Of a stretch of 34,938 bases of DNA, positions 1,926 through 17,611 are shown piece after piece. The notes below the pieces were generated by a model. The model was given only the letters and a program-made list of their open reading frames with translations, was not told the origin of the DNA and did no database searches. Position 1 is the stretch's first letter, and the number at the start of each line of letters is the position of its first letter. Position numbers and translations under genes: made by a program. Where the stretch lies: the IMG/VR virus record IMGVR_UViG_3300033233_000105, positions 1 to 34,938 of that record, one strand, 5' to 3'. The DNA is from a virus.

Positions 1926-1957
1926 GAGTTTTAGTTTTATCAGTAGAGCTAAAACTC
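1926..1957 (+). terminator. Terminator-like hairpin after the lysis genes
   Basis: GAGTTTTAG (1926-1934) pairs with CTAAAACTC (1949-1957), a 9-bp stem with a 14-base loop, followed by a pyrimidine- and T-containing tract. It starts 23 bases after the endolysin stop, as expected for termination of the late transcript. The T tract is interrupted, so its strength is uncertain. Confidence 0.5.
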
Positions 1958-1977: not shown

Positions 1978-2106
1978 CTAAACACTACCTTATTAATGTT
2001 TCTATTGTTTTCATATATACTTTTATATTGCCTTTCGAAAAAAAATATATATATATAGAATTGTAATGTTAATATAAAAAGAGCCTTAAAAACAGTAGAA
2101 ACAGTA
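1978..2106. repeat. 129-bp palindromic repeat, copy 1
   Basis: This block matches 20741-20869 at 126 of 129 positions by eye, without gaps. It is an imperfect inverted repeat: the left arm has GTTTCTATTGTTTT and later CTTTTATATT, the right arm AATATAAAAAG and AAAAACAGTAGAAAC. The centre carries TTTCGAAAAAAAAT and six TA dinucleotides. All three differences between copies lie in the arms. It sits just after the lysis genes and before the early genes. Possible roles are bidirectional terminator, origin, protein-binding site or recombination site; none is proven. Confidence 0.85.
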
Positions 2107-2188: not shown

Positions 2189-2221
2189 CTTTTTTTTAAC
2201 TTTTTTTTAACTTTTTTTTAA
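2189..2221. repeat. Three 11-bp tandem T8/A8 tracts (probable bent DNA)
   Basis: CTTTTTTTTAA occurs three times in perfect tandem, so T8 tracts (A8 on the other strand) start at 2190, 2201 and 2212. A spacing of 11 bp is close to one helical turn, and phased A-tracts are known to cause intrinsic DNA curvature. Such DNA is often found at origins and upstream of strong promoters. Confidence 0.8.
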
Positions 2222-2369
2222 CTTAACTATGTACTTTTATTAAAACTAGTGCTATTATTACACAGGCAAAATATGCCGGTCTTTGAAAACTTGATTGAAT
2301 CTTAAATCCATAAAGATTATTTATACTATGGTTTTATAAATTGTCGACCTGACAGATGAAATATAAAAG

Positions 2370-2729: not shown

Positions 2730-2763
2730 AAACACATCACTAATATAAAGGATCACGATCATG
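2730..2763 (+). promoter_or_regulatory. Duplicated leader/RBS cassette, copy 1
   Basis: AAACACATCA, a short A+T spacer, then TATAAAGGATCACGATCATG runs into the start codon. The same arrangement precedes the gene at 3324. AAAGGA is the ribosome binding site. Conservation beyond the ribosome site suggests a recent duplication or a shared translational control element. Confidence 0.65.
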
Positions 2764-3174
2764 GCAACACTTAAATCACAACAAATTTATTCTATTACTT
2801 TACATAGAACAGAAACAAATATTCTCACGGCAACAGTACTTTCAAAAATTACTTCTAGTCCAATATTCCTTGAAAATATTTTAAGTGCAACAATTGAATA
2901 TTTAGATAGAACTGACTCATATTTAATATCAATATTTTTAATGGACAAAAATCTTAATAGAGAAGTTGAACTTAGATTTATATCAAAATATTTAAGTATA
3001 AAAGATATGGGCTCTTTATTTCAACTTGAGTCTATAGACGTAAATAAAGAAACTTTTGAAACAAAAGAATATTATTTTGCTAGAGTTTCAAAGTACTGTT
3101 ACATTAACTTATATATTATTAAAACAATTAGTTGCACACCTCATTGTATTGAAAATTTTAGAAAAGTTTTTTAG
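2761..3174 (+). CDS. Early protein of unknown function (137 aa)
   Basis: This is the first well supported gene of the early region. The start is set by AAAGGA nine bases upstream within a duplicated leader. The 137-residue product has alternating polar and apolar stretches (SATIEYLDRTDSYLISIFLM) suggesting a mixed alpha/beta fold, and three cysteines in the last third. No signal peptide, membrane segment or known motif is seen. It shares its leader with the gene at 3324, so the two are probably expressed alike. Early phage proteins at such positions often take over host functions, but nothing here shows that. Confidence 0.65.
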   Translation: MATLKSQQIYSITLHRTETNILTATVLSKITSSPIFLENILSATIEYLDRTDSYLISIFLMDKNLNREVELRFISKYLSIKDMGSLFQLESIDVNKETFETKEYYFARVSKYCYINLYIIKTISCTPHCIENFRKVF

Positions 3175-3234
3175 ATCTTGAGTGTTATCACTAAATTCGA
3201 AAGGAATCTAGAGGATAGACTGACGCTTAAAATA

Positions 3235-3275
3235 CCAGCGTAAGTTTCTAAGGTACTTGCGCTGGATTTATTTTT
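3235..3275 (+). terminator. Terminator-like hairpin between early genes
   Basis: CCAGCGTAAGT (3235-3245) pairs with ACTTGCGCTGG (3255-3265), an 11-bp stem containing one G-U pair, followed by ATTTATTTTTA. This is the clearest terminator-like hairpin in the early region and would separate the genes at 2761 and 3324. Confidence 0.7.
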
Positions 3276-3290
3276 ACCTTATAAAAAAAC

Positions 3291-3326
3291 AAACACATCA
3301 ATTAAATATAAAGGATCACGATCATG
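3291..3326 (+). promoter_or_regulatory. Duplicated leader/RBS cassette, copy 2
   Basis: AAACACATCA followed by an A+T spacer and TATAAAGGATCACGATCATG repeats the leader seen at 2730-2763, again ending in the start codon. The two downstream proteins are not obviously related, so the leader was kept or copied independently of the coding sequence. Confidence 0.65.
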
Positions 3327-4409
3327 ACAACTACAAACAACTCAACAACAGATGCATCAGTTAATAAATTAGCTGTAAATATTTTATCACTAAACTTAGT
3401 AACAAATTCACGCTCAACTTATGGTGAAGCAAAAGTAAGTTTGCCTCTTTATGGACGTACTTATGAACTTGATATGATTATTAGAGAGAAATATATTTCT
3501 TATTTGGAAAGAAAAAAAGTAGAAGAACAAAGAAGCGACTTACATTGTGAAGCTTATGAGATTGATTGTGTAGGTGAATCATCAAGGATAGAAGAATCTC
3601 TTAAGCTTGTTGGACTTACATTTGATTATACAGAACTTATTTCTAGATACGCTTCTTTAATAGAAAGTAAAAAAGCTGAAGACAAACAAAAACAAATTGA
3701 GAAGTTATCAAGTTACTATGATTCTTTAAATATCGATGTTTATATGAACTACTTAATAAATCGTACTAAGTATATATCTGAACTTAGATTGTCTAAAGAA
3801 GATTATATTAAAGAAGGTGTTGAAAGACCTGTTGTAATATTAGTAAGAAGCACTAGAAAAGTTAATCATACAGAAAAAGCATTGGTAAGTTTTAATTCAT
3901 CTGTTGAAATTAGTTTATCAATTTCTGATACTGGAGTTAGACTACAAAAAGCAGATGTGCTTGATAATAATGAAACTAAATATATTAAAAAACGTAGTAA
4001 CAAAACAGAAACAGTAACAGCTTCATTAGTATTTAATAAATTAGAAACTATGATAGATGAATTACATAATGAAAACTTAAGAAAACTTCAAAGAGAGTAT
4101 GAGAGAAAAGAACTTATTGCAGCTACTTCTGCTAAACTCAATTATAATATAACAGAATTCAGATCAGTACATATTGATCCGTATTCAAGAAGTAGAAAAT
4201 GTGTTACAACAACTAACAAAGCATTTATCGTTAGAAAAGATTCAGATAAAAAACAATGTGTAGCAGTTCACTTTGATGTTAGTCCTGATGGTGAGGTCTA
4301 TAATATTAAAAACATTTATGGCAATCTTTCTAAAGATACTGTTAAAAAGATTTTAGATATATTAAATAATGAAGCTGAGATGGTTTACAATTCAGATTTA
4401 TCTAAATAA
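3324..4409 (+). CDS. Early protein of unknown function (361 aa), helical middle
   Basis: The 361-residue product is preceded by AAAGGA in the duplicated leader. It starts with a Thr/Ser/Asn-rich segment, has a charged helical stretch at about 105-135 (ESKKAEDKQKQIEKL) and another at about 245-270 (NENLRKLQREYERKEL), and ends with a mixed region containing HFDVSPDGEVYNIKNIYG. I recognise no family, signal peptide or membrane segment. The helical stretches suggest oligomerisation. It is one of the longest early proteins, so it may be a major early product. Confidence 0.7.
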   Translation: MTTTNNSTTDASVNKLAVNILSLNLVTNSRSTYGEAKVSLPLYGRTYELDMIIREKYISYLERKKVEEQRSDLHCEAYEIDCVGESSRIEESLKLVGLTFDYTELISRYASLIESKKAEDKQKQIEKLSSYYDSLNIDVYMNYLINRTKYISELRLSKEDYIKEGVERPVVILVRSTRKVNHTEKALVSFNSSVEISLSISDTGVRLQKADVLDNNETKYIKKRSNKTETVTASLVFNKLETMIDELHNENLRKLQREYERKELIAATSAKLNYNITEFRSVHIDPYSRSRKCVTTTNKAFIVRKDSDKKQCVAVHFDVSPDGEVYNIKNIYGNLSKDTVKKILDILNNEAEMVYNSDLSK

Positions 4410-4431
4410 TATTTATAAGGAAAAATTACAA

Positions 4432-4668
4432 ATGAAATGTACAAACTGTAACACTGATGCTAGTCTACTTCATGGATTTAGATGGAATCAAAAGTACGGT
4501 TATATAATAAATGATAATGAACTTCTTTGTGATAAATGTGCTGAACAAAGACCTGGATTTTTACAAAGTAATGAACTCTTATTAGTTCAAGAAAAACAAT
4601 TAAAATCTTTTAGTTATAAAAAACTTCGAAGAAAGCGAATACTGAATAAAAAAACATTCAAGAACTAA
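4432..4668 (+). CDS. Small zinc-ribbon-like protein (78 aa)
   Basis: I place the start at ATG 4432, because AAGGAAAAA lies just upstream and the preceding in-frame residues overlap the end of the previous gene. The product begins MKCTNCNTD and has a second pair in LLCDKCAEQRPG, giving a CxxC...CxxC arrangement with about 26 residues between the pairs, as in small zinc-ribbon proteins. The C-terminus is very basic (KKLRRKRILNKK), compatible with nucleic-acid binding. Function is unknown; transcription factor-like or structural zinc roles are both possible. Confidence 0.65.
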   Translation: MKCTNCNTDASLLHGFRWNQKYGYIINDNELLCDKCAEQRPGFLQSNELLLVQEKQLKSFSYKKLRRKRILNKKTFKN

Positions 4669-4688
4669 TTGATAAAGTTAATTTTATA

Positions 4689-4765
4689 ACAGATAGTTTT
4701 CAGTGATGTGTTACTATCTGTTTCCAAGGCTTTAGATGAGTTTTATGAGAGCTCATTCTAAAGCC
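4689..4765. terminator. Two consecutive hairpins in the 4669-4878 intergenic region
   Basis: ACAGATAG (4689-4696) pairs with CTATCTGT (4714-4721). Then GGCTTTAGATGAG (4728-4740) pairs with CTCATTCTAAAGCC (4752-4765), about 13 bp with one bulged T. The second is among the strongest hairpins in the window. Neither is followed by a clean T run on the + strand, so they may be processing or regulatory structures. Read on the minus strand, they lie downstream of the motif at 4800-4829. Confidence 0.5.
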
Positions 4766-4799
4766 TATATGTTTTATCATCATATATAATAAAAAGCTT

Positions 4800-4829
4800 G
4801 CCACACCAGCCTAATGAGTCCAAAACTAG
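4800..4829 (-). repeat. Intergenic GCTGGYGTGGC motif, copy A (inverted)
   Basis: Read on the minus strand, this contains the consensus CATTARGCTGGYGTGGC, preceded by CTAGTTTTGGA. The minus-strand sequence matches copy B (15738-15767) at about 26 of 30 positions and copy C (25321-25342) at all 22 core positions. It lies between genes, opposite in orientation to the other copies, about 50 bases before the gene at 4879. See findings. Confidence 0.7.
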
Positions 4830-4878
4830 TTATAATTTTAAATAATAAGAAGAAAAAACAAATATAAAGGAGCCAATC

Positions 4879-5085
4879 ATGAGTAAAGTAGCAGATCAGT
4901 CAGATTCACTTGCTTCAATCATTGAGGCGATGGATAAAGAAAGAGAAGAAATATTTTTATTAAAGGACTGTATTAAAAGAGGTTTTAGTTATAATTGTAT
5001 CAGAGAAGTTTTTGATACAAGTTTTTTAACTGAATATTATGATCGACTAAAAAGTATAGTTGAGTTAGAAAGAGAAAGTAAATAA
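4879..5085 (+). CDS. Small acidic helical protein of unknown function (68 aa)
   Basis: The start is supported by AAAGGAG followed by CCAATCATG. The 68-residue product is charged and probably all-helical (IIEAMDKEREEIFLLKDCIKRG; LKSIVELERESK). No motif or membrane segment is seen. The start context resembles the duplicated leaders at 2730 and 3291 (an AGGA element, then ATCATG), so it may be co-regulated with those early genes. Function is unknown. Confidence 0.55.
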   Translation: MSKVADQSDSLASIIEAMDKEREEIFLLKDCIKRGFSYNCIREVFDTSFLTEYYDRLKSIVELERESK

Positions 5086-5154
5086 TACTTGGGATTTTAA
5101 TTATAATTCTAAACAATAACAAGAAGAATAAATATAAAAGTTAAGAAAGGAAAA

Positions 5155-5205
5155 ATGCTTTTATATTTTTATAGTGCTTGGTTTTTATGTAAAAAAAATA
5201 ATTAA
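5155..5205 (+). CDS. Possible 16-residue leader peptide
   Basis: AAAGGA five bases before an ATG opens a 16-codon frame (MLLYFYSAWFLCKKNN), ending about 40 bases before the DUF932 gene. The peptide is hydrophobic with a basic end. The good ribosome site is the only support. It could be a tiny membrane peptide, a leader peptide, or chance. Confidence 0.25.
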   Translation: MLLYFYSAWFLCKKNN

Positions 5206-5246
5206 ACAAAAACAATGTAAAACAAAAAACAAAGGAATCACAGATC

Positions 5247-6515
5247 ATGGCAAAGAAAGCAACAACCCGTAAAGTTTCTAAATCTGCAGTAGCAGATTTA
5301 TCAACTACAACATTATTAAAAGTTGAAGATGAGTTAAAGAAACTTAGAGTTGAATATACTCGTAAAACTTCATCAATAATAGTTCCGTCAGTTGGAATTA
5401 CTTTATACTTTGATTCAATAGCTAAAAAAGTTATTGGACTTAAAGGTGATAAAGAAGTTTATGCTCAAGCTGATGTTAAAAAAGTTTCTACTTTATTTTC
5501 TAAAGATGTTAAACCTACTAGCTCAGTAGAAAAAACAAAAGAAAAAACTATTAAAGATAAAAAAGTTAAGAAAAGTGTTTTAGAAGTTAGAGCTGAGAAA
5601 GCTGCTATAGCTGAAGCAAAAAAGCAAGTTAAGAAAGAAGCTAAGCCAAAACAAGAACCAAAAGAAAAATACGTTGAACTTGTTGAAGAATCACCAGTAC
5701 TAAAAACAATTATTAAAAAGTCATGTGAACCGGTTGAGTTAGTCTCTATAAAAGATATGTCTAACCAAAAGATTGAAGGCTATATGGGAGTAATGAACTT
5801 AGAACAAAAGAAAGTTGTTTCAATTGTTTCTGATACATATAACTTGCTACCAAATAAAGTTATTGTTGACCCAGTGCTGCAATGGTTAGAACAGAATAAG
5901 ATAAAATATACTATGGATAAATTCACTTACGTAACTGATCAAAGAATGAGATTACATTTAACTTTTCCTGAATTCAAAATTAAAGATGATTCTAAAGATG
6001 GAATTCTTGCAAGTGTATTTTTACATAACTCATATAATCAAATTGAATCTTATCGTTTAGTTGCTGGTGGTATGCGTCAAGTGTGTTCTAATGGTATGAT
6101 AATTGGAACAGTTATAAAAAAACTTTCTGTTATTCACCAAGCAACAAATATTAAAGAAATTTCAATTGCAAATATTGAATCAGTACTTGGTGGCTTTGCT
6201 AGTAACACAAAACATGTTGAAGCAAGAATAATAGAAATGATTCAGCAAAAAGCTGTTGTTAAAGATATTTTATCAATAACAAAAAACTTAGAGCCAAGGA
6301 TAACTGCTTATCTTTTAGAAAAACTCGGACTATGCGAAATGGGAATGGCTACTAGTCAAGCTGTTGCAGTATTAGACGATCTAAATGAAAAACAAACTTT
6401 AAAACAAAGTATGTATGATGTGTATAATATACTCACATACTATGTTTCTCATTTAATGCAGCAAAGATATAGAACAGACTTTTTAATGAAGTTCTCAAAG
6501 AAGTTTGAGATATAA
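5247..6515 (+). CDS. DUF932-family phage/plasmid-like protein
   Basis: The 422-residue product has an N-terminal region of about 85 residues, a Lys/Ala/Glu-rich linker (about 90-145), and a C-terminal DUF932-like domain (about 165-420). Recognisable pieces are VSDTYNLLPN and, further on, YRLVAGGMRQVCSNGMIIG, which match the conserved centre of the DUF932 / TIGR03299 phage-plasmid family. AAAGGA precedes the ATG. The biochemical role of DUF932 is not established; members are common beside replication and recombination genes, as here, where a helicase follows after 2 bases. The long charged linker is unusual. Confidence 0.7.
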   Translation: MAKKATTRKVSKSAVADLSTTTLLKVEDELKKLRVEYTRKTSSIIVPSVGITLYFDSIAKKVIGLKGDKEVYAQADVKKVSTLFSKDVKPTSSVEKTKEKTIKDKKVKKSVLEVRAEKAAIAEAKKQVKKEAKPKQEPKEKYVELVEESPVLKTIIKKSCEPVELVSIKDMSNQKIEGYMGVMNLEQKKVVSIVSDTYNLLPNKVIVDPVLQWLEQNKIKYTMDKFTYVTDQRMRLHLTFPEFKIKDDSKDGILASVFLHNSYNQIESYRLVAGGMRQVCSNGMIIGTVIKKLSVIHQATNIKEISIANIESVLGGFASNTKHVEARIIEMIQQKAVVKDILSITKNLEPRITAYLLEKLGLCEMGMATSQAVAVLDDLNEKQTLKQSMYDVYNILTYYVSHLMQQRYRTDFLMKFSKKFEI

Positions 6516-6517
6516 TT

Positions 6518-7771
6518 TTGAAGCTTCGTAACTATCAACATGAGCTTGCTGAAAAAGGCAAGCTCATATTATTAAAGTATAACTTATTATACTTGGCTAT
6601 GGAGATGCGTGTTGGAAAAACATTTATAGCATTTGAAATAGCTAATCTTATTAAAGCTAAGAAAGTTTTATTCATAACAAAGAAAAGAATTATCTCAACT
6701 GTGTTAGAGAATTTTAATGAGTTAGGTTATAAAAATCTTTTAATAGATTTTATTAACTATGAGTCTATTCATAAACTTGAACTAGCTGTGTATGATTTAA
6801 TAATTTGTGATGAAGCACACACCTTAGGTGGTTTTCCTAAACCATCTAAAGCTGCAAAACAACTGCACAACAGATTAGAAAAACTTTCTACTAGAATTAT
6901 TTTTTTAAGCGGAACACCTACACCTGAATCTTATAGTCAACTTTATCATCAACTATGGATTAGTAGATTTACACCATTTAGTCAGTGGCCTAAATTTTAT
7001 GATTGGGCTAAAGCTGGATTTGTTCAGATAGTACAAAAACAAATTTCCGGTTACAGAATAAATGATTACTCACATGCAAATAAATCTACAATAGATACTT
7101 ATACAAAAAAATTATTTTTATCGTATACACAAGCTGAAGCTAACTTTAATGTAAGTGATATTGATGACGAGATTAAAATAATTCCTTTGCCTGATAACTT
7201 ACTTAAGCTTTCAAGAATACTTATTAATGATAGAGTTTACACACTAAAGAATGGTGATGTTATTCTTTGTGATACTGGTGTTAAACTTCAGCAAAAATTA
7301 CATCAAATATTTTCTGGGACTGTAATAGTAACTACTAAAGAAGCTAAAACAAAATCAATTCAACTTGATGATTATAAAGTCAATTACATACTTAATAATT
7401 ACAAAGGAAAAAAGATTGCTATATATTATTTGTATAATCATGAAGGCATAATGTTAAAGAATAAAATTAGTCCTTGGACAAATGATCAAGTAGTATTTAG
7501 TAAAAATAAATCATATACTTTTATAAGCCAGTTTCAATCTGGCGCTAGAGGAATAAATTTATCTAGCGCTGATGTGATAGTATTTTTTAACATTCATTTT
7601 TCATCTGAGTTGTATCAACAAGCTAGACAGAGAGGTCAAGAGAAAGATAAAGTTGTTGCTACAAAGTTACATTGGTTATTTTCTGATCGTGGTATTGAAC
7701 AAAAAATCTATTCACGTGTTATTAAAAAACAATCTTATACACAATCATATTTTAGAAAGGACTATTTATGA
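6518..7771 (+). CDS. SF2 (SNF2-like) DNA helicase/translocase
   Basis: The 417-residue protein carries the superfamily 2 motifs in order: a Q-motif-like start (NYQHELAEKG, 5-14), Walker A MRVGKT (30-35), DEAH box (98-101), motif III SGTPTPES (about 134-141), motif V SGARGINLSSAD (about 338-349) and motif VI QQARQRGQ (about 365-372). It is compact for the family. It starts with TTG two bases after the DUF932 stop. It is expected to couple ATP hydrolysis to movement on duplex DNA in replication or recombination. The stop overlaps the next gene by an ATGA. Confidence 0.85.
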   Translation: MKLRNYQHELAEKGKLILLKYNLLYLAMEMRVGKTFIAFEIANLIKAKKVLFITKKRIISTVLENFNELGYKNLLIDFINYESIHKLELAVYDLIICDEAHTLGGFPKPSKAAKQLHNRLEKLSTRIIFLSGTPTPESYSQLYHQLWISRFTPFSQWPKFYDWAKAGFVQIVQKQISGYRINDYSHANKSTIDTYTKKLFLSYTQAEANFNVSDIDDEIKIIPLPDNLLKLSRILINDRVYTLKNGDVILCDTGVKLQQKLHQIFSGTVIVTTKEAKTKSIQLDDYKVNYILNNYKGKKIAIYYLYNHEGIMLKNKISPWTNDQVVFSKNKSYTFISQFQSGARGINLSSADVIVFFNIHFSSELYQQARQRGQEKDKVVATKLHWLFSDRGIEQKIYSRVIKKQSYTQSYFRKDYL

Positions 7772-8076
7772 AAAATCAATTTACTCAGTTGACAAATAAG
7801 TTTACTCTAACACTTGATAATGTTAGACAAATTATTTTTAGACAAAGAAAAAAAGATACTGGAACTAAAAAAGAAACTGCTCGCAGCACAGGTGGTGGAG
7901 GTCATACTGTTCCAGCTCATGTTACTGACACAGCTATTAAAACACTTGATAAATATCAGTATAAAAGAAAAACTTGTAATGTTAAATCTGTTTTAGTTAG
8001 AAGAAAAAGAAATAAAATTTCAGCTAGATCTCGCAGAATTAACAGAATAAAAAGACAGCATGGAAAGGCGGCTTAA
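7768..8076 (+). CDS. Small, very basic protein of unknown function
   Basis: The 102-residue product overlaps the helicase stop by 4 bases (ATGA). It contains STGGGGHTVPAHVTDTAIKTL (about 40-60, one residue repeated from its neighbours omitted here) and a strongly basic C-terminus (VRRKRNKISARSRRINRIKR). The charge suggests binding to DNA or RNA. A competing frame at 7814-7996 encodes a Leu/Lys-rich stretch, but this frame is preferred because it is longer, coupled to the helicase, and ends just before the next gene. No family is recognised. Confidence 0.6.
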   Translation: MKNQFTQLTNKFTLTLDNVRQIIFRQRKKDTGTKKETARSTGGGGHTVPAHVTDTAIKTLDKYQYKRKTCNVKSVLVRRKRNKISARSRRINRIKRQHGKAA

Positions 8077-8082
8077 TTTATT

Positions 8083-8388
8083 ATGACAGAACAAGAGTGT
8101 CAAACAAAAATATTACAGTTTCTTTTTAGTATAAATGTTTTTGCATTCAAAGTTATAAATGCAACTACTAGTGGACATACAGATATAACAGCTTGTGTAA
8201 GTGGTGTCTTTGTTGGCATTGAAGTTAAGAGTGATACAGGAAATGTAACTCCACTTCAAGAGTATACACATAAAAGAATTCTTAAATCTAACGGAGCTGT
8301 TTTCGTAGTACGTCCTAGCACATTAGAACAATTTAAAGAACAAATAAATAAAATACTTTTAGCAAATCAAAAAGGAAAAAAGAAATGA
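8083..8388 (+). CDS. VRR-NUC domain nuclease
   Basis: The 101-residue product is a stand-alone VRR-NUC (PD-(D/E)XK superfamily) domain: SGHTDITAC with Asp34, GIEVKS with Glu47 and Lys49, and Gln59 in TPLQEY, followed by GAVFVV. The length matches the small phage type. Members bind Mg2+ and cut DNA, often branched or flapped structures, during replication or recombination. It follows a helicase and a basic protein and overlaps the next gene by 4 bases (ATGA), so it is part of the replication operon. Confidence 0.82.
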   Translation: MTEQECQTKILQFLFSINVFAFKVINATTSGHTDITACVSGVFVGIEVKSDTGNVTPLQEYTHKRILKSNGAVFVVRPSTLEQFKEQINKILLANQKGKKK

Positions 8389-8825
8389 AAGCATATATAG
8401 CAAGTGGTTTTTTTAATGAGCAACAAATTTTAGATATTGAAATAATTAAACAAGCATGTAAAAATGTTGGCTTAGAATTTTATTCACCAAAAGATGAAGT
8501 GGTAGCAAATCCAAATGATGGCCTTGAATCTAGACAAAAAGTTTTTCAAGCAAATATAAATGCTATACAATCTTGTGGTGTTGTAATTGCTAACACACGC
8601 GATAAAGATGTTGGAACTGTTTGGGAAGCTGGATTTGCTTTTGGAATTACTTGTCCTGTTATTTATTACTTTTCCGATAGAGATAAATTCAATGGCTTTA
8701 ATTTAATGCTTGCTGAATCAGGCATAGCTGTATGTAATTCATTAACAGATTTACAAGACGTGTTAACTATGTTTATAAATAACAATTGTAATTATCATAG
8801 ACCTTATCTAAAGGAGATACAATAA
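8385..8825 (+). CDS. Nucleoside 2-deoxyribosyltransferase-like protein
   Basis: The 146-residue protein shows the family pattern: N-terminal YIASGFFNEQQ, a middle strand CGVVIANT, and GTVWEAGFAFG, in which Glu81 is the expected catalytic residue. The length is typical. The family exchanges or hydrolyses the glycosidic bond of deoxynucleosides or deoxynucleotides, salvaging or removing particular bases. It overlaps the nuclease gene by ATGA and is followed by an HD phosphohydrolase, a ThyA-like protein and a dNMP kinase, so it belongs to a nucleotide-remodelling block. The substrate cannot be read from the sequence. Confidence 0.8.
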   Translation: MKAYIASGFFNEQQILDIEIIKQACKNVGLEFYSPKDEVVANPNDGLESRQKVFQANINAIQSCGVVIANTRDKDVGTVWEAGFAFGITCPVIYYFSDRDKFNGFNLMLAESGIAVCNSLTDLQDVLTMFINNNCNYHRPYLKEIQ

Positions 8826-8829
8826 AATT

Positions 8830-9384
8830 ATGACACTATCAAACTTATTAAAATATTGCCATCGTCTTGGAATTTTAGAAAGATTTAATACAAGACCTAG
8901 AATAAAAAAAGAAACTGTTGCTGAGCATTCATATTTTGTTACTTTAATAACAAGTTTACTGTGTGATGCAATAATTCTTAACACTCATTATGTTCCAAAT
9001 AAATACTTAGCACTTAAAATGGCTTTGATTCATGATTTGCCTGAGAGTGAGTTCAGTGATATACCTCATGATTCTAAACAAAAAATTCCTGGATTAAAAG
9101 ATTCTTTATTAGAATTAGAGATGAATTTTTTTAAGTCAGAAGAAAGTAAATTCTGTTACAAAAAGCTATCTGACAATAATTCTCTTGAATCTGCTATAGT
9201 AAATTATGCTGATATACTTGCAGTTAAATATTATGCTGAACAAGAAATTAGTTTAGGTAATACAAATTTTATTTCTATACTTGAAGAGACAGAAAAAAGA
9301 TTGATGGTAATTGAAAATCCGAACATAGAAATTGTTTTTAAAGTTTACTCAAATTTAATATTTGATTGGAGGAAGTTAGTATAA
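8830..9384 (+). CDS. HD-domain deoxynucleotide phosphohydrolase (YfbR-like)
   Basis: The 184-residue product has the HD metal site: His33 in VAEHSY, His68-Asp69 in LIHDLPE and Asp128 in NYADIL, with Glu72 nearby. The arrangement and length resemble YfbR-type 5'-deoxynucleotidases; the phage dATPase DatZ belongs to the same broad group. It would remove phosphate from dNMPs or dNTPs and so shape the nucleotide pool. AAAGGAG lies about 11 bases before ATG, slightly far. The stop overlaps the next start by one base. Neighbours are all nucleotide enzymes. Confidence 0.8.
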   Translation: MTLSNLLKYCHRLGILERFNTRPRIKKETVAEHSYFVTLITSLLCDAIILNTHYVPNKYLALKMALIHDLPESEFSDIPHDSKQKIPGLKDSLLELEMNFFKSEESKFCYKKLSDNNSLESAIVNYADILAVKYYAEQEISLGNTNFISILEETEKRLMVIENPNIEIVFKVYSNLIFDWRKLV

Positions 9385-9911
9385 TGGACTCAATTTCATA
9401 TCAAGTTTTTGGTAAAGTAGTAGTCTTAAATGAAAGACTAATATTTCCAGTTAGCCCAACATTTTTTCATCATAGTAAAAATAATGGAAATGATATTAAA
9501 AAAAATTATTACTGTAGTGAACAAGTTATTTTTAGCAAAGAAGAAATGGAAAACATTCCTAGTTATTATAGTATAGAAGAGAGCAAAGATAAAAAATATT
9601 TTTCTAAAATAAAAGCTAATATAGAACATTTATTTTATCTCTTTGATGTTGGAATAAAAAATGAAAGACAATTGATTTACACTGATGATTCTGATTGTAT
9701 TTCATTGATTCATATTATGCCGCGTATTTACGAAGAGAATCTTAAAACAATGCACAGATCTATGAAAGAGTATTCTGTTTTAGTATATCAAAGAAGCGCT
9801 TATTTGACTTCTCTTATACATGATATGTTATTTATTAAGAGCTTGTTCAAAGATGCCGCTGGAATCACTTATGTGTTAAATAACGTGCACTATATTAAGG
9901 AGTCAATATGA
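9384..9911 (+). CDS. Putative ThyA-fold protein lacking an evident catalytic cysteine
   Basis: I start the gene at ATG 9384, which shares one base with the HD stop and has GGAGGAA upstream; an in-frame TTG at 9366 is less likely. In the 175-residue product the C-terminal part reads VLVYQRSAYLTSLIHDMLF, then G160 and VLNNVHYI. This resembles the ThyA pattern QRS (phosphate-binding Arg) ... G ... sHiY. The region corresponding to the ThyA active-site Pro-Cys-His has Met-Pro-Arg (about 112-114), with no cysteine. The N-terminal half is not recognised and the protein is shorter than ThyA. The assignment is tentative. Confidence 0.4.
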   Translation: MDSISYQVFGKVVVLNERLIFPVSPTFFHHSKNNGNDIKKNYYCSEQVIFSKEEMENIPSYYSIEESKDKKYFSKIKANIEHLFYLFDVGIKNERQLIYTDDSDCISLIHIMPRIYEENLKTMHRSMKEYSVLVYQRSAYLTSLIHDMLFIKSLFKDAAGITYVLNNVHYIKESI

Positions 9912-10354
9912 TATTATTTGAAGGGATAGATAAAACAGGTAAATCAACTTTGCATAAAGCATTTGATAAAGCTGTTAATTATAAGTATCTTACTTGTGAA
10001 AGATATTTTGTAACTTATTTAGCTTATTGTCTTCGTTATAATAGAGAAATAGATTTTGTGCAGCTGTTTAGGGACATGCCACAAGATTTACTTATTGTTC
10101 ATTTGATTTGTTCAAATAAAGAACATTACTATAATAGATTAAAAGAACATAAGCATGAGTATATTAATGATGAAGAAGATGATAAATGTTTTAATAAAGC
10201 TATTGAGATGATACTTAAACTTAATAGCATTGAGAGCCTTAATTTTTGTGGCACAAATAAAAAACGAATTGAAGTTTTAACTCTTGATACAAGTATATTA
10301 ACTGAAGCTACTTGTGTTGAAGAAATAAAATTGCATGCAACGTATTTTTTATAA
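9908..10354 (+). CDS. Thymidylate-kinase-like dNMP kinase
   Basis: The 148-residue product begins with the P-loop FEGIDKTGKST (Gly6-Thr14), has ERYFVTYLAY (31-40) at the place of the DRY motif of thymidylate kinases, and DLLIVHLICS followed by a basic helix where the lid normally lies. At 148 residues it is shorter than usual (about 200). It would phosphorylate a dNMP, possibly the product of neighbouring enzymes. The ATGA overlap with the ThyA-like gene implies coupled translation and a linked pathway. Substrate specificity is unknown. Confidence 0.72.
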   Translation: MILFEGIDKTGKSTLHKAFDKAVNYKYLTCERYFVTYLAYCLRYNREIDFVQLFRDMPQDLLIVHLICSNKEHYYNRLKEHKHEYINDEEDDKCFNKAIEMILKLNSIESLNFCGTNKKRIEVLTLDTSILTEATCVEEIKLHATYFL

Positions 10355-10366
10355 AAATAAATAAAG

Positions 10367-10603
10367 ATGAATGGTTGTAACTTCATGAAAATTATTGTCA
10401 ATATTAGTGTTATTCCAAACACTAAATGGTTGATAGTCGATGCACATAATAAATACTGTTCTATAAGTATAGCTATTCCTAACAATCATATTATTTACAG
10501 GCTAATTAAAATCAGCATAAAACTTTATTTACTAACAGTAGTTAAGATAATTTTAACAATTAGTAAACTAATTTGTTTACGAGAGGAGAAGAATAATGAA
10601 TGA
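10367..10603 (+). CDS. Small hydrophobic protein of unknown function
   Basis: The frame encodes up to 78 residues; ATG 10385 is an alternative start that gives 72. The middle and C-terminal half is hydrophobic and isoleucine-rich (IKLYLLTVVKIILTISKLI), suggesting a membrane segment. There is no strong Shine-Dalgarno. The 3' end contains GAGAGGAG, the ribosome site of the next gene, and overlaps it by 8 bases, which supports an organised operon. Reality of the gene is moderately supported and its function is unknown. Confidence 0.45.
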   Translation: MNGCNFMKIIVNISVIPNTKWLIVDAHNKYCSISIAIPNNHIIYRLIKISIKLYLLTVVKIILTISKLICLREEKNNE

Positions 10604-11087
10604 ACTAGCACAAAACATATTTTATAAATTGAGTACAATTACAGCTTGGAATGACTTAGATAATCAAGTCAAAGATTTGTTAACAGAAGCCATTAACATT
10701 GGAATTGATGAAACACTAAAGCAGGCTAGTGTTGAGTATGAGGTTACTATTAAACTTGCTGAAGTATATAAGCTAATTGATGAGATGATAAATTCAGCAC
10801 AAAAAATAGTGGAAGATTATTTGCTAGAGAAAGATATTACAGACAAGAGAGAAGAAAAAATATTAAGAGCAATCGGCAATTATTACATTATAGCACTTAC
10901 AGGATTAAAAGAAAAGATAAAGATTAACTTACAACTTGCAAGAGCTAAAAAAGAGTTTGAAACAAAATTTTTAGATGGTAATAGTTTGGACACTTTAGAA
11001 TCAGGGGGATTTGATAAACAAGACATTGATGATATAAGAAAACTATGGACTTGGTTTTTAAACAATTTTAATGAACTATCAAAGTAA
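10596..11087 (+). CDS. Helical protein of unknown function (163 aa)
   Basis: The start is well supported by GAGGAGAAGAATAATG. The 163-residue product is rich in charged helix-forming residues (SVEYEVTIKLAEVYKLIDEM; LQLARAKKEFETKFL), with a tail FDKQDIDDIRKLWTWFLNNF. No motif, signal peptide or membrane segment is visible. It sits between the nucleotide block and the ThyX-like gene. A structural or accessory replication role is possible but not supported directly. Confidence 0.65.
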   Translation: MNELAQNIFYKLSTITAWNDLDNQVKDLLTEAINIGIDETLKQASVEYEVTIKLAEVYKLIDEMINSAQKIVEDYLLEKDITDKREEKILRAIGNYYIIALTGLKEKIKINLQLARAKKEFETKFLDGNSLDTLESGGFDKQDIDDIRKLWTWFLNNFNELSK

Positions 11088-11148
11088 TAGTTTTGCAATG
11101 TATCATGTTGTAGTAAGTTATTTTAATAATTATTTAAGGAGTTATAAA

Positions 11149-11343
11149 ATGAAAATAAAAGATGGTGGTTCTACCCAAAACATTAAAGGAAAGAAAATTG
11201 AGGAAATAAAAATCAACTGGACACAGAGTGAGAATTATATCTTTGAAATGTGGGTAAATGATAGCTTATCATATTTAACAATAAACGAATTGTTAGCGTT
11301 AAGAACGGAAATACAAAATGCACTTAATAAGGCGGTTAAATAG
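11149..11343 (+). CDS. Small protein of unknown function (64 aa)
   Basis: I choose ATG 11149 because AAGGAG lies 8 bases upstream; the longer frame from 11071 would overlap the previous gene and has no ribosome site. The product (MKIKDGGSTQNIKGKKIEEI...) has a probable beta N-terminus and a helical C-terminus (TINELLALRTEIQNALNKA). No family is recognised. About 70 noncoding bases separate it from the ThyX-like gene. Confidence 0.6.
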   Translation: MKIKDGGSTQNIKGKKIEEIKINWTQSENYIFEMWVNDSLSYLTINELLALRTEIQNALNKAVK

Positions 11344-11416
11344 CCCTTGTCCATTTAACAAGCGGAAATTTACCAGCAAGCAAAAATAATTTTTTAACAT
11401 AAAAGGATAACATAAA

Positions 11417-12295
11417 ATGAAAGAAAAAAACTTTCCTCAGAAACTCAAATTTGGTGTTAATTATAGTGTTCTTTTTAATGGACTATATTCTATTGAATTA
11501 GAAACTGTTGAAGCACCAAGAGTTGACTATAAACGTTTAGTTTATAGAAAAGTAAAAGCAACATGGGAAGATCAACCTATGTATAAAAAAGACTTAGACT
11601 TAGTTAGTGATGAAGAACTGTTACAAACATTTATGGATGTTATAACATTTAAAACTTTACCAAACTCAATGGAGTCAATTCAATTTACTTTTTTAATTAG
11701 AGGTTTACCACTTGTTGAAGTAACACATTTATTAAGACATAGAACTTTAAGTGGAATACATGCGCAGTGCACTGGCGATAGAGATTTAAGAGAAGATACT
11801 TACTACATTCCAAATAGTATTCAAAGACTAACAGAAGATACTAATGATAATAATTTTGCTGAGCGATATAAAAAGTTAGTTGAACAATGTGTTGAATTAT
11901 ACTCTGATATGGTTGATAGTGGTGATGTTAGTTTAATGGATGCTAGATATATACTGCCAAGAAGTGCGCAGTACTTTTATTATTTCACTGTTAACTTAAA
12001 AGATCTTATCATGATTATCAATCAAAGAAAATGCACAATGATACAGCCAGAGGTTGATAATTATTTTGCTTATTTACTTTACACTGAAGCTGTGAAATAT
12101 ATTCCTGAACTTAAAGAAATTATTACTCTCAAATGTACTAGTAATTGTCATTACGTTAACAGTAGAGATGATTTGAATACTAGATTATATTATCCTGATA
12201 AAAATCATGAAGAGTTGTTACGTAATAAAGGCTTAAATGAAATGCCAAATTCTGTTTATAAAAGAACACGAAAGGATATGGGTAGTTTAATATGA
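11417..12295 (+). CDS. thyX: ThyX-like flavin-dependent thymidylate synthase, variant motif
   Basis: The 292-residue product has the ThyX layout: LLRHRTLSGIHAQCTGDR (106-122 region) at the signature, MDARYILPRSAQ (about 174-185), NLKDLIMIINQR, and IQPEVDNYFAYLL in place of AQ.EI. ThyX makes dTMP from dUMP using FAD, NADPH and methylene-tetrahydrofolate. The canonical RHR-x7-Ser motif is altered: Gln117 occupies the Ser position and Cys118 follows. The protein is longer than usual (about 220-250). The start has AAAAGGA upstream. It overlaps the next gene by ATGA. A related pyrimidine-modifying activity cannot be excluded. Confidence 0.75.
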   Translation: MKEKNFPQKLKFGVNYSVLFNGLYSIELETVEAPRVDYKRLVYRKVKATWEDQPMYKKDLDLVSDEELLQTFMDVITFKTLPNSMESIQFTFLIRGLPLVEVTHLLRHRTLSGIHAQCTGDRDLREDTYYIPNSIQRLTEDTNDNNFAERYKKLVEQCVELYSDMVDSGDVSLMDARYILPRSAQYFYYFTVNLKDLIMIINQRKCTMIQPEVDNYFAYLLYTEAVKYIPELKEIITLKCTSNCHYVNSRDDLNTRLYYPDKNHEELLRNKGLNEMPNSVYKRTRKDMGSLI

Positions 12296-12534
12296 AAAAG
12301 AAAAAATGGATAACTAAATATCAAAAAGAATACGGACAGAAAACTATTCCTATTGATTTTGAAAAGTTTATGAGACATTATGAACTTACTGTTGAAGAGT
12401 TAGTTGTTGTGCTGTGTTATTCAAAACAAGGAGTTGTATCAATGCTTTCACGTGGAACTGTTAAAAGATCTGTGTTTGATTTATTAGCTGTGCACTATTC
12501 AGACATTTATAAGTATATAAAGAAAGTGAAGTAA
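12292..12534 (+). CDS. Small helix-turn-helix DNA-binding protein
   Basis: The 80-residue, Lys-rich protein contains FEKFMRHYELTVEELVVVLC followed by YSKQGVVSMLSRGTVKRS, which fits a Cro/XRE-like helix-turn-helix. It overlaps the ThyX stop by ATGA. A regulator of phage transcription is likely, but no operator is identifiable. It could also be a small structural DNA-binding protein. It is not next to a divergent gene, so a classical repressor switch is not indicated. Confidence 0.55.
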   Translation: MKKKKWITKYQKEYGQKTIPIDFEKFMRHYELTVEELVVVLCYSKQGVVSMLSRGTVKRSVFDLLAVHYSDIYKYIKKVK

Positions 12535-12541
12535 AAAAATT

Positions 12542-13453
12542 ATGGCTTTAATAAAAAATATAAAAAAAGATCTTGGAATAAAAGATGTTATTCGTATTGA
12601 CTACTTTGATTCAAGATATTATAAAATTTTGTATGAAGTAACAAATGGAAAAAAGAAAACTTTGGAAGAAGAACATTTTCCATCTGTTACAGAAATACTA
12701 GGAGCATTTCCAAAACCATTCTTAGCACGGTGGCGTGGTGAAGTTGGAAATGAAAGAGCTGAGCAAGTAATAAGTGATGCACTTAATTTAGGTAGTACTA
12801 TACACAGTGGTGCTGAACTAATTGCTAATGGTGCAGCTGTTGTTTATAATCCTTACGGCAAGCCGATATATAATGAGAAACAACTTAAAGATATGGAAAA
12901 AAAGTTTGGAAAAATTTTCATATGTCGTTTTCAAAAAGAATTTGTTCAACTTTATAGAATTTGGCAGTTCTTTGAAATAGTTAAGCCAACTAAAATAGAA
13001 ACAGAGATAACTGTTTACTCATTGAAATGGAAGTTCGCTGGCACAACAGATCTATTCTGTTATATTAAAGAAGGCGATTATATGATTCAAGGTTCTCAGC
13101 CAATGTACTTACAAGAAGGCTTTTACTTGTGTGACTATAAAACAGGTAAAAATATTGACAAGTCAAATAAATTTCAAGTCTCAGCATATATGGAAGCTAT
13201 AATGGAAGGTAAGCAAGAGATGAGAAAAAAAATAGTTGGTGGATTATTGCTTCATCCAAACAATGAAAAAATTGAAAATGGAATTCAAGGCTTTAAAGCA
13301 ACTTTGATAACTATGGAAGAACAACAAGAATATTTTAGAAGCTTTATTAAAGTTTATGATGTTTATAAAATAGATAAGCCAATTCCAACACCAAAAGAAT
13401 TTGCTATCCCTACAGTGTTAAGCTATTCTCAATTAACAAAAGGAAAAAAATAA
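12542..13453 (+). CDS. RecB/Cas4-like PD-(D/E)XK exonuclease
   Basis: The 303-residue product has PSVTEILGAF near the N-terminus, then GSTIHSGAE with His88, FAGTTDLF with Asp170, CDYKTG with Asp198 and Lys200, and FQVSAYMEA downstream. This is the motif order of RecB-family nucleases (H, D, DxK, Q/Y). Phage members act as exonucleases in recombination or DNA processing. It lies 7 bases after the helix-turn-helix gene and 1 base before the DNA polymerase gene, placing it in the replication and recombination operon. Confidence 0.8.
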   Translation: MALIKNIKKDLGIKDVIRIDYFDSRYYKILYEVTNGKKKTLEEEHFPSVTEILGAFPKPFLARWRGEVGNERAEQVISDALNLGSTIHSGAELIANGAAVVYNPYGKPIYNEKQLKDMEKKFGKIFICRFQKEFVQLYRIWQFFEIVKPTKIETEITVYSLKWKFAGTTDLFCYIKEGDYMIQGSQPMYLQEGFYLCDYKTGKNIDKSNKFQVSAYMEAIMEGKQEMRKKIVGGLLLHPNNEKIENGIQGFKATLITMEEQQEYFRSFIKVYDVYKIDKPIPTPKEFAIPTVLSYSQLTKGKK

Positions 13454-13454
13454 A

Positions 13455-15332
13455 TTGATTTACACAAATGTAAAAACAATAAGTCTAAGTAAAATAAAAG
13501 CTAAGAAGCTTGTTTTTAGTGATATGCTAAAAATGATAAAAGCAAGCAAAGAAATTTATATAGACACAGAAACTTGTGGCAAGAATTTTAACTATCAAGA
13601 GCATGTAGATTCATATGTACATTTACAAATTCAAAATGGAAAAAAAATAACTGCTACAACAAAAAAATCTGCTGAGAAGTATGCACAAGAAATTCAAAAA
13701 GAACTAGCTTTGGATCCTCATAGAAGTGATGTTCGTTTATTTCAAATTGCAACAGACAAAGATGATATATTTGTTATTGATACTTTTGTTGCAACAAAAA
13801 AAGAAATAAATAGTCTTATAAAAACTATAAGTGATAAGCCTATGTGTGGTCAAAATATTAAATTTGATTTGAAAGTTATTAAAGCAAATTATAAAGAGTT
13901 CACTTGGACTGAGCTCTTTGACACTATGATTGCTTTTAGAATGATTAGAGCTTATCAAACTACAGAGTATGTTAAAGCACATCTTGCTAATGTAGTTCAA
14001 TTTCATTTAGGTATTGAATTACTTAAAGGCCATGGAGCTGATGATTGGTCACAGCCAATAACAGATGAACAATTTATCTATAGTGTTGAAGATGTTAAAT
14101 ACTTAAAGCAAACTGCGTTGAAACAAATAAATGAATTAAACAACAATAGTGTTAGACAAGTAATTAAAGGTTATTTTAATAATCAATTATTCGATGTTGT
14201 TTCTATAATTGAAATGAAGTTCATCAGTGTTCTTATTACAACTGAGCTTAAAGGTGTTCCACTTAATATTAAAGGCTTAAAAGAAAGAGCTATCATTGTT
14301 GAAAAAGAACTTACACAAGTGTCAAAAATTTTTAAGGATAATGATGTTAATACTTCAAGTCCTAAACAGTTAATGGATTTTATAGACAAGATGTGTCCTG
14401 ATATAAATATTATGTCAACAAGCAAAGAAGCGCTTGAACGCCATAGAAAAAATAAACTTATTGAAGATTTACTACTAGTTAAAAAGTTACAAAAAGAATT
14501 TCAAATGATTACTGATTATATAACTATTTGGCATAGAGATGGAATTATATATCCAAACTTTCAACAGATAAGAGCACCAACAGGCAGAATGAGTTGTTAT
14601 GACCCAAACTTGCAACAAATACCTAGACACTTAAAAAATCTTTTCTACTTAGCAAGTTCAGATAATCCAATATTTAGAATTGACTATCCGTCTATTGAAG
14701 CTAGGACTGGTGGAGTTATTATGCAAGATCAAGAAATAATTCGTATATTCAAAGAAGGAAAAGATATGCATATTGAAACTGCTGCAGCATTCTTGCATAA
14801 AAAGCCTGATGAAGTTACAAGTGAAGAAAGAAGAAAAGCTAAAGCAGCAAACTTTGGTTTTTTATTTGGCATGGGTGCCAAAACTTATGTTGATTATGCT
14901 TATCAAAGTTATGGATTAAACTTAACTTTTGAAGAGTCAGTTAATACACGTAATTTGTATTTGAAAAGATATAAAGGTGTTGCAGCTTTTCATAATAAAA
15001 CAAGTTTATTGCTTAGAGACAATCGTGAGTATATAGGAAGAACTATTCTTGGTAGAAAAATGATGATTGATCAGTTTACAAATGGAAATAATTATCCTGT
15101 ACAAGGGAGCGCAATTGATATTCTTAAATTAGCTGCAGGACTTTTTTATTACAGTTGTAAAGAAAAACAAATTGATGCTACAATTATTAACATAGTTCAT
15201 GATGAGCTTGTTGTAATAACAACAAAGAAAGATAAACAAATTGCTCAAGCACAGTTGAAAGATTCTATGGAACGTGCTGCTAACTTTGCAATGCCACAAT
15301 TCAAAACAGAGTGTGAAGTTCAAGAGCTATAG
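13455..15332 (+). CDS. polA: Family A DNA polymerase with 3'-5' exonuclease
   Basis: The 625-residue protein has a proofreading domain (IDTET with Asp37/Glu39; GQNIKFDL; YSVED with Tyr209/Asp213) and a family A polymerase domain: motif A DYPSIEAR (Asp410), motif B RRKAKAANFGFLFG (Lys463, Phe467) and motif C VHDEL (His582-Glu584). There is no 5'-3' exonuclease domain, typical of phage polymerases. Compared with the usual DYSQIELR and NFGxxYG, motif A has Ser and Ala changes and motif B has Phe471 where Tyr766 of E. coli Pol I would be. Phe is kept at the 762-equivalent. The TTG start follows AAAGGA. Confidence 0.92.
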   Translation: MIYTNVKTISLSKIKAKKLVFSDMLKMIKASKEIYIDTETCGKNFNYQEHVDSYVHLQIQNGKKITATTKKSAEKYAQEIQKELALDPHRSDVRLFQIATDKDDIFVIDTFVATKKEINSLIKTISDKPMCGQNIKFDLKVIKANYKEFTWTELFDTMIAFRMIRAYQTTEYVKAHLANVVQFHLGIELLKGHGADDWSQPITDEQFIYSVEDVKYLKQTALKQINELNNNSVRQVIKGYFNNQLFDVVSIIEMKFISVLITTELKGVPLNIKGLKERAIIVEKELTQVSKIFKDNDVNTSSPKQLMDFIDKMCPDINIMSTSKEALERHRKNKLIEDLLLVKKLQKEFQMITDYITIWHRDGIIYPNFQQIRAPTGRMSCYDPNLQQIPRHLKNLFYLASSDNPIFRIDYPSIEARTGGVIMQDQEIIRIFKEGKDMHIETAAAFLHKKPDEVTSEERRKAKAANFGFLFGMGAKTYVDYAYQSYGLNLTFEESVNTRNLYLKRYKGVAAFHNKTSLLLRDNREYIGRTILGRKMMIDQFTNGNNYPVQGSAIDILKLAAGLFYYSCKEKQIDATIINIVHDELVVITTKKDKQIAQAQLKDSMERAANFAMPQFKTECEVQEL

Positions 15333-15349
15333 GAGACAAAACTTATGTG

Positions 15350-15374
15350 TTTACTAATTTATAAAATTAGTAAA
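15350..15374. terminator. A+T-rich hairpin after the polymerase gene
   Basis: TTTACTAATTT pairs perfectly with AAATTAGTAAA across a 3-base loop. It starts 18 bases after the polymerase stop. It is symmetric but A+T-rich and lacks a following T run, so it may be a weak terminator or an RNA-stabilising structure. Confidence 0.4.
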
Positions 15375-15444
15375 TTATAAACATAGAATTATTTACTTTA
15401 ATTTTTTTTATAATAAAAAGTTGAAGAGAAAAGAAGTATTTTAT

Positions 15445-15555
15445 ATGGAACATCTAATTCAATTAACAAGTTTACTTATTACTTTCATATACTTGATTGT
15501 AGTAGTAGCGCTTGTTTTTTTTATAATTAAAATAATGATTAAAAAAATATGGTAA
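15445..15555 (+). CDS. Tiny membrane protein (36 aa)
   Basis: The frame encodes a 36-residue peptide with one long hydrophobic segment (about 8-30, LLITFIYLIVVVALVFFII) and a basic end (KKIW). The upstream AGAGAAAAGAAG is only a weak ribosome site. It overlaps the next frame by 7 bases (ATGGTAA). The single-span design and the similarly built neighbour support it as real, but it is short. Function is unknown. Confidence 0.4.
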   Translation: MEHLIQLTSLLITFIYLIVVVALVFFIIKIMIKKIW

Positions 15556-15722
15556 TACTCATTATAATATTTATGTCTGTTATTGTTATTACTTTAGTAA
15601 TTAAGTATTTAGTTTGGGCGATAATAGTTAAACAAGATCTTATGTTCATGACTAAAGAAAAATTTAGAGAAAAACATCCTTTAGTTTACAGATCTTTATT
15701 AAAACAGAATAAAACAATATAA
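15549..15722 (+). CDS. Small membrane protein (57 aa)
   Basis: The 57-residue product has an N-terminal transmembrane segment (about 2-27, VILIIIFMSVIVITLVI) and a charged C-terminal tail (MTKEKFREKHPLVYRS). It overlaps the preceding tiny gene by 7 bases, suggesting coupling. No ribosome site is visible, consistent with re-initiation. Function is unknown. Two adjacent single-span peptides in a replication operon could be membrane anchors for replication or superinfection-exclusion factors, but that is speculation. Confidence 0.45.
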   Translation: MVILIIIFMSVIVITLVIKYLVWAIIVKQDLMFMTKEKFREKHPLVYRSLLKQNKTI

Positions 15723-15737
15723 TATGCTTAATAAAGC

Positions 15738-15767
15738 TAGTTTTGGATGCATTAAGCTGGCGTGGCG
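15738..15767 (+). repeat. Intergenic GCTGGYGTGGC motif, copy B
   Basis: This carries CATTAAGCTGGCGTGGC preceded by CTAGTTTTGGATG, matching the reverse complement of copy A (4800-4829) at about 26 of 30 positions. It lies 16 bases after the small membrane gene and about 155 bases before the SSB-like start. A 42-codon frame (15724-15852) runs through it, but differences from the other copies would all change the encoded residue. Confidence 0.65.
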
Positions 15768-15922
15768 GGCCTTTTATTCATCCAGAGTATATTTTATTGA
15801 CAGATTCAAAAAACTCTTAAGAAAGGAGTATATGGAGTTTTTTCTAATATAGCCACTACTTGTAATTTATAATAAATATAATAGTCAAAAAAAACAAAAT
15901 GTCGAAAGGACAAAGAATTATT

Positions 15923-16720: not shown

Positions 16721-16748
16721 TTAGTATGTGTTACAATAACTAATAGTT

Positions 16749-16776
16749 AATGCCACAGTAATTATGCTGTGGCATT
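16749..16776 (+). terminator. Hairpin after the SSB-like gene
   Basis: AATGCCACAG pairs perfectly with CTGTGGCATT (10 bp) across an 8-base loop, 28 bases after the SSB-like stop, followed by ATAATCTTTAAT. It is the right place and shape for a terminator or an attenuator, although the T run is broken. Confidence 0.6.
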
Positions 16777-16816
16777 ATAATCTTTAATAAAAAATATACA
16801 TAAGGAAATAAATAAA

Positions 16817-17404: not shown

Positions 17405-17406
17405 TC

Positions 17407-17610: not shown

Positions 17611-17611
17611 T

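Follow-up and report, generated by a model that had tools for sequence, protein, structure and literature searches.

Among the closest described counterparts of the locus considered here are the replication elements of pRN1, the PICIs and phage P4. In pRN1, a stem-loop of approximately 100 bp occurs 3′ of the gene for the primase-SF3 helicase, beyond a terminator that is dispensable, and work has shown that the stem-loop is both necessary and sufficient in cis (PMC4234260). A pRN1-like stem-loop was reported by the same authors in Bordetella phage BIP-1 (PMC4234260). The origins of PICIs consist of two sets of iterons around an AT-rich region and likewise lie 3′ of a gene, rep (PMC6092414). 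In the record of phage P4, the gene for the alpha primase is followed by its terminator and then by crr, whose type 1 repeats comprise a 9-bp tandem pair and an inverted pair. The repeats of crr occur again in ori, beyond the other end of the replication operon, with crr (4291-4590) and ori (9086-9809) flanking alpha. The P4 alpha primase itself is of the bacterial (Toprim) type (PMC4234260).

The window analysed here is the whole of a phage record from IMG/VR, 34,938 bases in length. It contains two copies of a repeat (Table 1), both of which are probably initiator-binding origin elements of the P4-family primase-helicase encoded by the same DNA.

Position and organization of the repeat

The main genes of the window all lie on the + strand, beginning with lysis genes (to 1903) and continuing with the early/replication genes and then the terminase and structural genes. 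One copy of the repeat occurs at the lysis/early junction, and the other lies between the early/replication genes and the terminase genes. The two match at 126 of 129 positions in direct orientation with a spacing of 18,763, which bears out the initial annotation's description of a same-orientation pair, and a search of the whole record returned no third copy. The claim that the pair brackets the early/replication module is also true in this contig, and the layout matches that of crr and ori in phage P4. The accompanying statement that copy 2 follows the last replication gene holds insofar as copy 2 lies 3′ of the primase gene; however, two small ORFs intervene between the end of that gene at 20104 and position 20674. 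Chance falls far short of explaining a near-identical direct repeat of 129 bp whose flanks diverge, and a weak likeness of the two copies extends leftward to approximately 1965 (ATTTTG..TTC). Three mismatches separate copy 1 from copy 2 (2005 T / 20768 C; 2012 C / 20775 T; 2095 G / 20858 A). Of these, 2005/20768 and 2095/20858 are the two sides of a single stem pair, which is T-G in copy 1 and C-A in copy 2, just as had been noted.

The repeat had also been described as a 129-bp palindrome, which does not hold over its whole length. The palindrome proper consists of inverted arms of 15-17 bp around an AT-rich centre of 73-77 nt with a (TA)n tract. In copy 1 the inverted arms (1997-2011 and 2089-2103) are 77 nt apart, and in copy 2 (20760-20776 and 20850-20866) they are 73 nt apart. 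Each arm comprises two tandem 9-bp units resembling TGTTTYTAY, the outer arm ends span 107 nt in either copy, and 80% of the sequence between them is A+T. The repeat therefore has what is expected of an iteron or stem-loop origin, namely, inverted sets of short repeats around an AT-rich region. Copy 2 was the strongest inverted repeat among 80 windows tested, and the record held four overlapping inverted repeats with 15-bp arms, at most one mismatch and a spacer of 60-90, where Markov sequences averaged 0.6. The tandem-unit signal, by contrast, is weak in the window arms taken alone (7/9 matches; shuffle p ~0.13 for three of the four arms), which counts against an origin. No match to the repeat was returned by blast against 50,697 phage records, nor by a search of viral contigs for the exact loop pattern.

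Table 1. Features of the window in and around the two copies of the repeat, in window coordinates
Feature	Position	Strand	Remarks
Intrinsic terminator ending the late/lysis transcript, distinct from copy 1 and immediately 5′ of it	1926..1957	+	
First copy (copy 1) at the lysis/early junction; candidate for a second origin element	1978..2106	+	126/129 identity with copy 2
Left arm of copy 1, a tandem pair of 9-bp units, TGTTTCTAT TGTTTTCAT	1997..2014	+	
Copy 1 AT-rich centre, (TA)n tract	2015..2085	.	Same as copy 2 centre, 72/72
Copy 1 right arm, both units inverted	2086..2103	-	
T8 tracts with an 11-bp period, to the right of copy 1	2190..2225	+	Possibly bent DNA
Early/replication module between both elements (DUF932, SNF2 helicase, ThyX, PolA, primase)	2761..20674	+	
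Conserved gene before the primase gene, as in L006 (SSB position)	15899..16720	+	Function suggested by synteny
P4-family primase-helicase, presumed initiator	17612..20104	+	830 aa; gene before copy 2
Second copy (copy 2), downstream of the primase-helicase gene; candidate origin element	20741..20869	+	L006 and L032 carry homologues at this position
Left arm of copy 2, with units TGTTTCTAC TGTTTTTAT	20760..20777	+	
Copy 2 AT-rich centre, (TA)n tract	20778..20848	.	
Copy 2 right arm, inverted units	20849..20866	-	
Terminase genes, first of the late block beyond copy 2	21095..22844	+	

Terminators and transcripts around the copies

A palindrome in such a position could conceivably act as a transcription terminator, or as an mRNA 3′-end hairpin (an RNase III site or a stabilizing stem-loop), to end the late and early transcripts. 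Each copy is indeed found where an operon ends, both fold, and paired changes distinguish the window from its two relatives, L006 and L032 (described below). An intrinsic terminator, however, has a short G+C-rich stem, a short loop and a T-run, whereas the loop here is 73-77 nt (up to 81 nt when the relatives are included), the stem is AU-rich and no T-run occurs 3′ of the repeat. Moreover, a terminator scanner found the sequence just upstream of copy 1 and nothing inside the repeat, and strong intrinsic terminators precede the element in L006 (4131-4171) and L032 (1743-1791). Since separate terminators sit just upstream in these three cases, the palindrome itself is very improbable as the terminator, in keeping with the doubt that the initial annotation had expressed; ahead of copy 2 there is a weak stem and no clear terminator. 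On the + strand, the arms have G-U mismatches about as often as A-C ones, which gives no preference for either strand as RNA, and the fold of the centre differs from one relative to the other.

Another reading that draws on RNA is that the element is transcribed at the head of the following operon as part of a structured RNA, whether a leader, an antiterminator or a small RNA. The hairpin energy is modest in the window (z -3.2, + strand) and strong in L006 (z -6.6), and a possible -7 box of the Bacteroidota type, TAATTTTG, occurs at 1966-1973, just ahead of the repeat. Yet this box is conserved neither in copy 2 nor in the relatives, the wobble pairs have no strand preference, the repeat has no match in Rfam, and the Shine-Dalgarno-like AAAGGAG found on most genes leaves the host phylum uncertain. 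Taken together, a structured RNA is extremely improbable. A Bacteroidota promoter was also considered and rejected, as the TAnnTTTG box occurs ahead of copy 1 only and the Shine-Dalgarno sites argue against relying on it.

Several other features were observed outside the repeat. From copy 1 to the first early ORF there are 650 nt (2107-2760) without a convincing gene, and the RNA fold of this stretch was no better than those of shuffles (z +0.98). It includes three T8 tracts with an 11-bp period (AACTTTTTTTT) at 2183-2226, about 85 bp to the right of copy 1, which are possibly bent DNA near an early promoter or origin. A 27-nt translation leader, AATATAAAGGATCACGATCATG, is near-identical at 2742-2768 and 3305-3331, ahead of two early genes. 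GC skew showed no switch at copy 1 or copy 2, a point against an origin, the main genes all being on one strand. Finally, an early intergenic sequence at 4800-4822 is the exact 23-nt reverse complement of a late intergenic sequence at 25320-25342, just before a scaffold-like gene (25502). Both sites occur within + strand operons, the extended RNA-RNA duplex has an energy of -58 kcal/mol, and an early RNA could pair with the late mRNA in this manner; the complement is absent at the corresponding place in L006.

The presumed initiator

The primase-helicase encoded before copy 2 has a BT4734-like/PrimPol-like N terminus (with matches to BT4734-like_N and PrimPol_Db), followed by D5_N, DUF5906, the TIGR01613 helicase and a winged-helix-like C terminus. 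The match to TIGR01613, the P4-family helicase, scored 280 bits against a cut-off of 108.7 and, along with D5_N and DUF5906, denotes the P4-family primase-helicase that would be expected as initiator at an iteron or stem-loop origin. A match to Pox_D5, at 17.3 bits, was below its cut-off of 21.4. Sequence matches of the protein in the PDB are viral primase-helicases. No Toprim domain, which would be required of a P4-type initiator, was found in the window primase.

A sequence profile of the C terminus gave nothing convincing against the PDB, and the model of the full-length protein was unusable (pLDDT 39). The model of residues 691-830, which is of moderate confidence (mean pLDDT 59), matched the winged helices of RFX (Z 8.4 and 7.7) and the C terminus of the ASFV PrimPol (Z 7.7). 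The same model also matched the P4 origin-binding domain, 1ka8 (Foldseek probability 0.90; Z 7.4 over 80 residues at 3.1 Å). Z scores of 7-8 are commonplace for models of this sort. As modelled, the C terminus of the primase appears winged-helix-like, resembling the P4 origin-binding domain.

The element in syntenic relatives

Protein searches yielded two syntenic relatives, the contigs L006 and L032, whose primases are 62-66% identical to that of the window. The gene order is primase, terS, terL and portal in both, preceded in L006 by a gene at the SSB position; the product of the corresponding window gene had no match in Pfam or NCBIfam. Both contigs cover the primase-terminase border, and neither reaches the lysis-early junction. 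A diverged homologue of the repeat occurs between primase and terS in each, with 19-bp arms, a 76-nt spacer and an outer-arm span of 114 nt in L006, and with 18-bp arms, an 81-nt spacer and a span of 117 nt in L032. The element starts 107-130 nt past the primase stop in these relatives, whereas copy 2 lies beyond the two small ORFs. Position and pairing, which the initial annotation had singled out as worth following in related phages, are thus conserved at the primase-terminase border of both.

The arm sequence of L006 and L032 approximates TATGGTTTYTATGGTTTT, again with a 9-bp period. From the window to the relatives, the unit changes from TGTTTYTAY to GGTTTYTAT, with T replaced by G in nearly all units, and throughout this change the dyad pairing, the likeness of neighbouring units and the 9-bp period are all kept. 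Judged by sequence comparison, such coupling of tandem units is more than base pairing alone would enforce. Between L006 and L032, the arms, a CCTTTC motif and the AT tract are conserved, whereas much of the other intergenic sequence drifts.

When viral contigs were scanned with the right-arm pattern, L006 and L032 were the only matches. Three genome matches to the same pattern (L035-L037) were dismissed as chance, having no left arm. Terminase relatives L007-L022 were set aside as not syntenic, and no relatives were found in searches with the DUF932 protein or, in genome contigs, with the primase alignment. The contig L039, which encodes a distant P4-family primase, has an origin-like region at 632-900 with TAGTGAAAT-like repeats and an inverted repeat (775-891) whose 20-bp arms enclose a 77-nt AT-rich spacer. 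This lies 7 kb from the primase gene and was not counted.

Occurrence beside other P4-family primases

Seventeen other phages with P4-family primases, comprising the five top matches and 12 chosen across the spread of the list, were scored for inverted repeats with a spacer of 45-100 nt; the 420 nt that follow the primase stop were compared with windows elsewhere in the ~6-kb locus. The post-primase window ranked first in 8/17 (phi105, A2, JNU_P5, A9Y, phiEG37K, Malthus, Javan123 and Carvaje), where 0.7 would be expected by rank; the corresponding P of ~2e-7 assumes independence and is optimistic, as phi105 and A9Y are related. The post-primase regions of the window, L006 and L032 likewise rank first. 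In the remaining 9/17 of the sample, no such element was found 3′ of the primase, which counts against an origin. The phi105 element closely resembles that of the window in architecture, with 9-bp tandem units (TGTTACTTT TGTTACTTA) and a (TA)n centre, and the record of Lactobacillus phage A2 carries an annotated rep_origin (32208-32717) over the post-primase site. Inverted repeats with 45-100-nt spacers occur directly 3′ of the P4-family primases in the records L042 (phi105), L045, L046, L050, L054 and L057, where no origin is annotated. The figure of 8/17 suggests that the inverted-iteron origin known from pRN1, PICIs and a few phages could be common 3′ of P4-family primases in tailed phages.

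These data bear on the main functional rival to an origin, which is a regulatory role. A phage regulator might bind the inverted unit pairs upstream of early and late promoters and turn one block off and the other on, making the copies operators of an early/late switch. Inverted tandem units are typical of operators too, each copy lies between the end of the previous operon and the first gene of the next (2761 and 21095), and copy 2 is within ~230 nt of terS. On the other hand, 650 nt separate copy 1 from the first early gene, a (TA)n centre of such length would be unusual for an operator, and the element recurs 3′ of P4-family primases despite a different downstream gene order, for example in phi105 and in A2 with its annotated origin. 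A switch operator is for these reasons distinctly unlikely; protein-bound units could also affect transcription.

History and role of the two copies

The centres of the two window copies are identical (72/72), whereas those of L006 and L032 are 70% identical even though their primase DNA is 87% identical, implying that the window copies were recently duplicated or homogenised. On its right, copy 1 is flanked by TATTTC, which is closer to the relatives' element than the flank of copy 2 is, a weak hint that old copies were homogenised later. For a role in recombination, the direct evidence is limited to these apparently homogenised centres. As the contigs of the relatives stop short of the lysis-early junction, the age and function assigned to copy 1 are inferred.

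It is worth considering whether copy 2 alone functions. Copy 1 would then be a duplicate of recent date without a function, or else the junction of lysis and early genes would be a product of assembly or recombination at the repeat. The identity of the centres, set beside the 30% difference between those of L006 and L032, would fit such a history. A second, distal copy was sought in five phages that have the element (phi105, A2, phiEG37K, Javan123 and Malthus) and none was found, and the 1-2106 junction is seen in the window record only, unconfirmed by a relative. Nevertheless, the three differences between the copies do not fit a simple assembler duplicate, the flank of copy 1 is the closer one to the relatives, and P4 has two elements so arranged. 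On balance, it is unlikely that copy 2 alone functions or that the junction arose in such a way.

Origin elements remain the preferred reading. Copy 2 is well supported as a candidate initiator-binding origin element by its architecture, its position, the protein family and the analogues, and it is plausible that copy 1 works as a second such element. The origin and the protein-binding site, which the initial annotation had listed as separate alternatives, are here favoured together. Each copy would be a cis-acting replication element in which two inverted pairs of tandem 9-bp iterons flank an AT-rich (TA)n stretch, and this stretch of 73-77 nt could melt or extrude. The phage's own primase-helicase would use its predicted C-terminal winged helix to bind the units, its helicase ring would be assembled on the AT-rich centre, and the enzyme would open the centre and then prime. 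Copy 2 lies 3′ of the gene for the presumed initiator, the usual place for an origin, and copy 1, at the other border of the module, would be another origin or an accessory site comparable to the paired ori and crr of P4.

A broader proposal can be made tentatively. The window might possibly be a bipartite replicon, that is, a tailed phage, encoding a DNA polymerase of its own, in which two near-identical, complete origins border the early module and recombination keeps the copies identical and also makes the module exchangeable. Such a replicon could have two start sites, or its two sites could be looped together by the initiator, as with P4 ori and crr.

Comparison with known systems

Much like pRN1 (21-nt stem, 58-nt loop), where the gene encodes a primase-SF3 helicase-winged helix protein, the window has a stem-loop of ~100 bp 3′ of the gene for a primase-helicase with a putative C-terminal winged helix. 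As in pRN1 and BIP-1, a separate terminator precedes the element, clearly so in L006, L032 and copy 1 and not clearly before copy 2, and structure is kept while sequence drifts. The pRN1 origin, however, is single and was described without iterons, whereas the arms in the window are tandem 9-bp units and occur in two copies. In phi105, a P4-family primase is followed on its 3′ side, as in the window, by arms of 16-18 bp with two 9-bp units around an AT-rich (TA)n centre, here of 78-82 nt, and A2 has the same layout with a rep_origin annotated there; both differ in their unit sequences and in the one copy found per genome. PICIs, including SaPIs, are chromosomal islands with one origin each (PMC6092414), in contrast to a tailed phage with two elements. 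As with the iteron and stem-loop origins, copy 2 is at the site directly 3′ of the primase gene; copy 1 is elsewhere.

P4 resembles the window in its P4-family helicase initiator, in short repeats with 9-bp tandem spacing and inverted copies, and in an element 3′ of the primase gene past its terminator, with a second element across the replication operon. In both, then, two cis elements with common repeats flank the replication operon. The differences are also clear. The P4 alpha primase has a Toprim domain and the window primase a BT4734/PrimPol-like N terminus, and P4 is a satellite, whereas the window belongs to a tailed phage that encodes a PolA of its own. Because its initiator lacks a Toprim domain, the window replicon is not filed as a member of the P4 type, although by analogy it would work like that of P4. 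A candidate origin and initiator can thus be offered for an uncultivated phage group, which raises the question of why a phage keeps two elements in an arrangement otherwise familiar from P4 ori and crr. In P4, crr consists of two 120-bp repeats and ori is laid out differently; what is new in the window is that both elements are near-identical, complete units with identical centres, and the need of P4 for two sites could be studied in this second, symmetric example.
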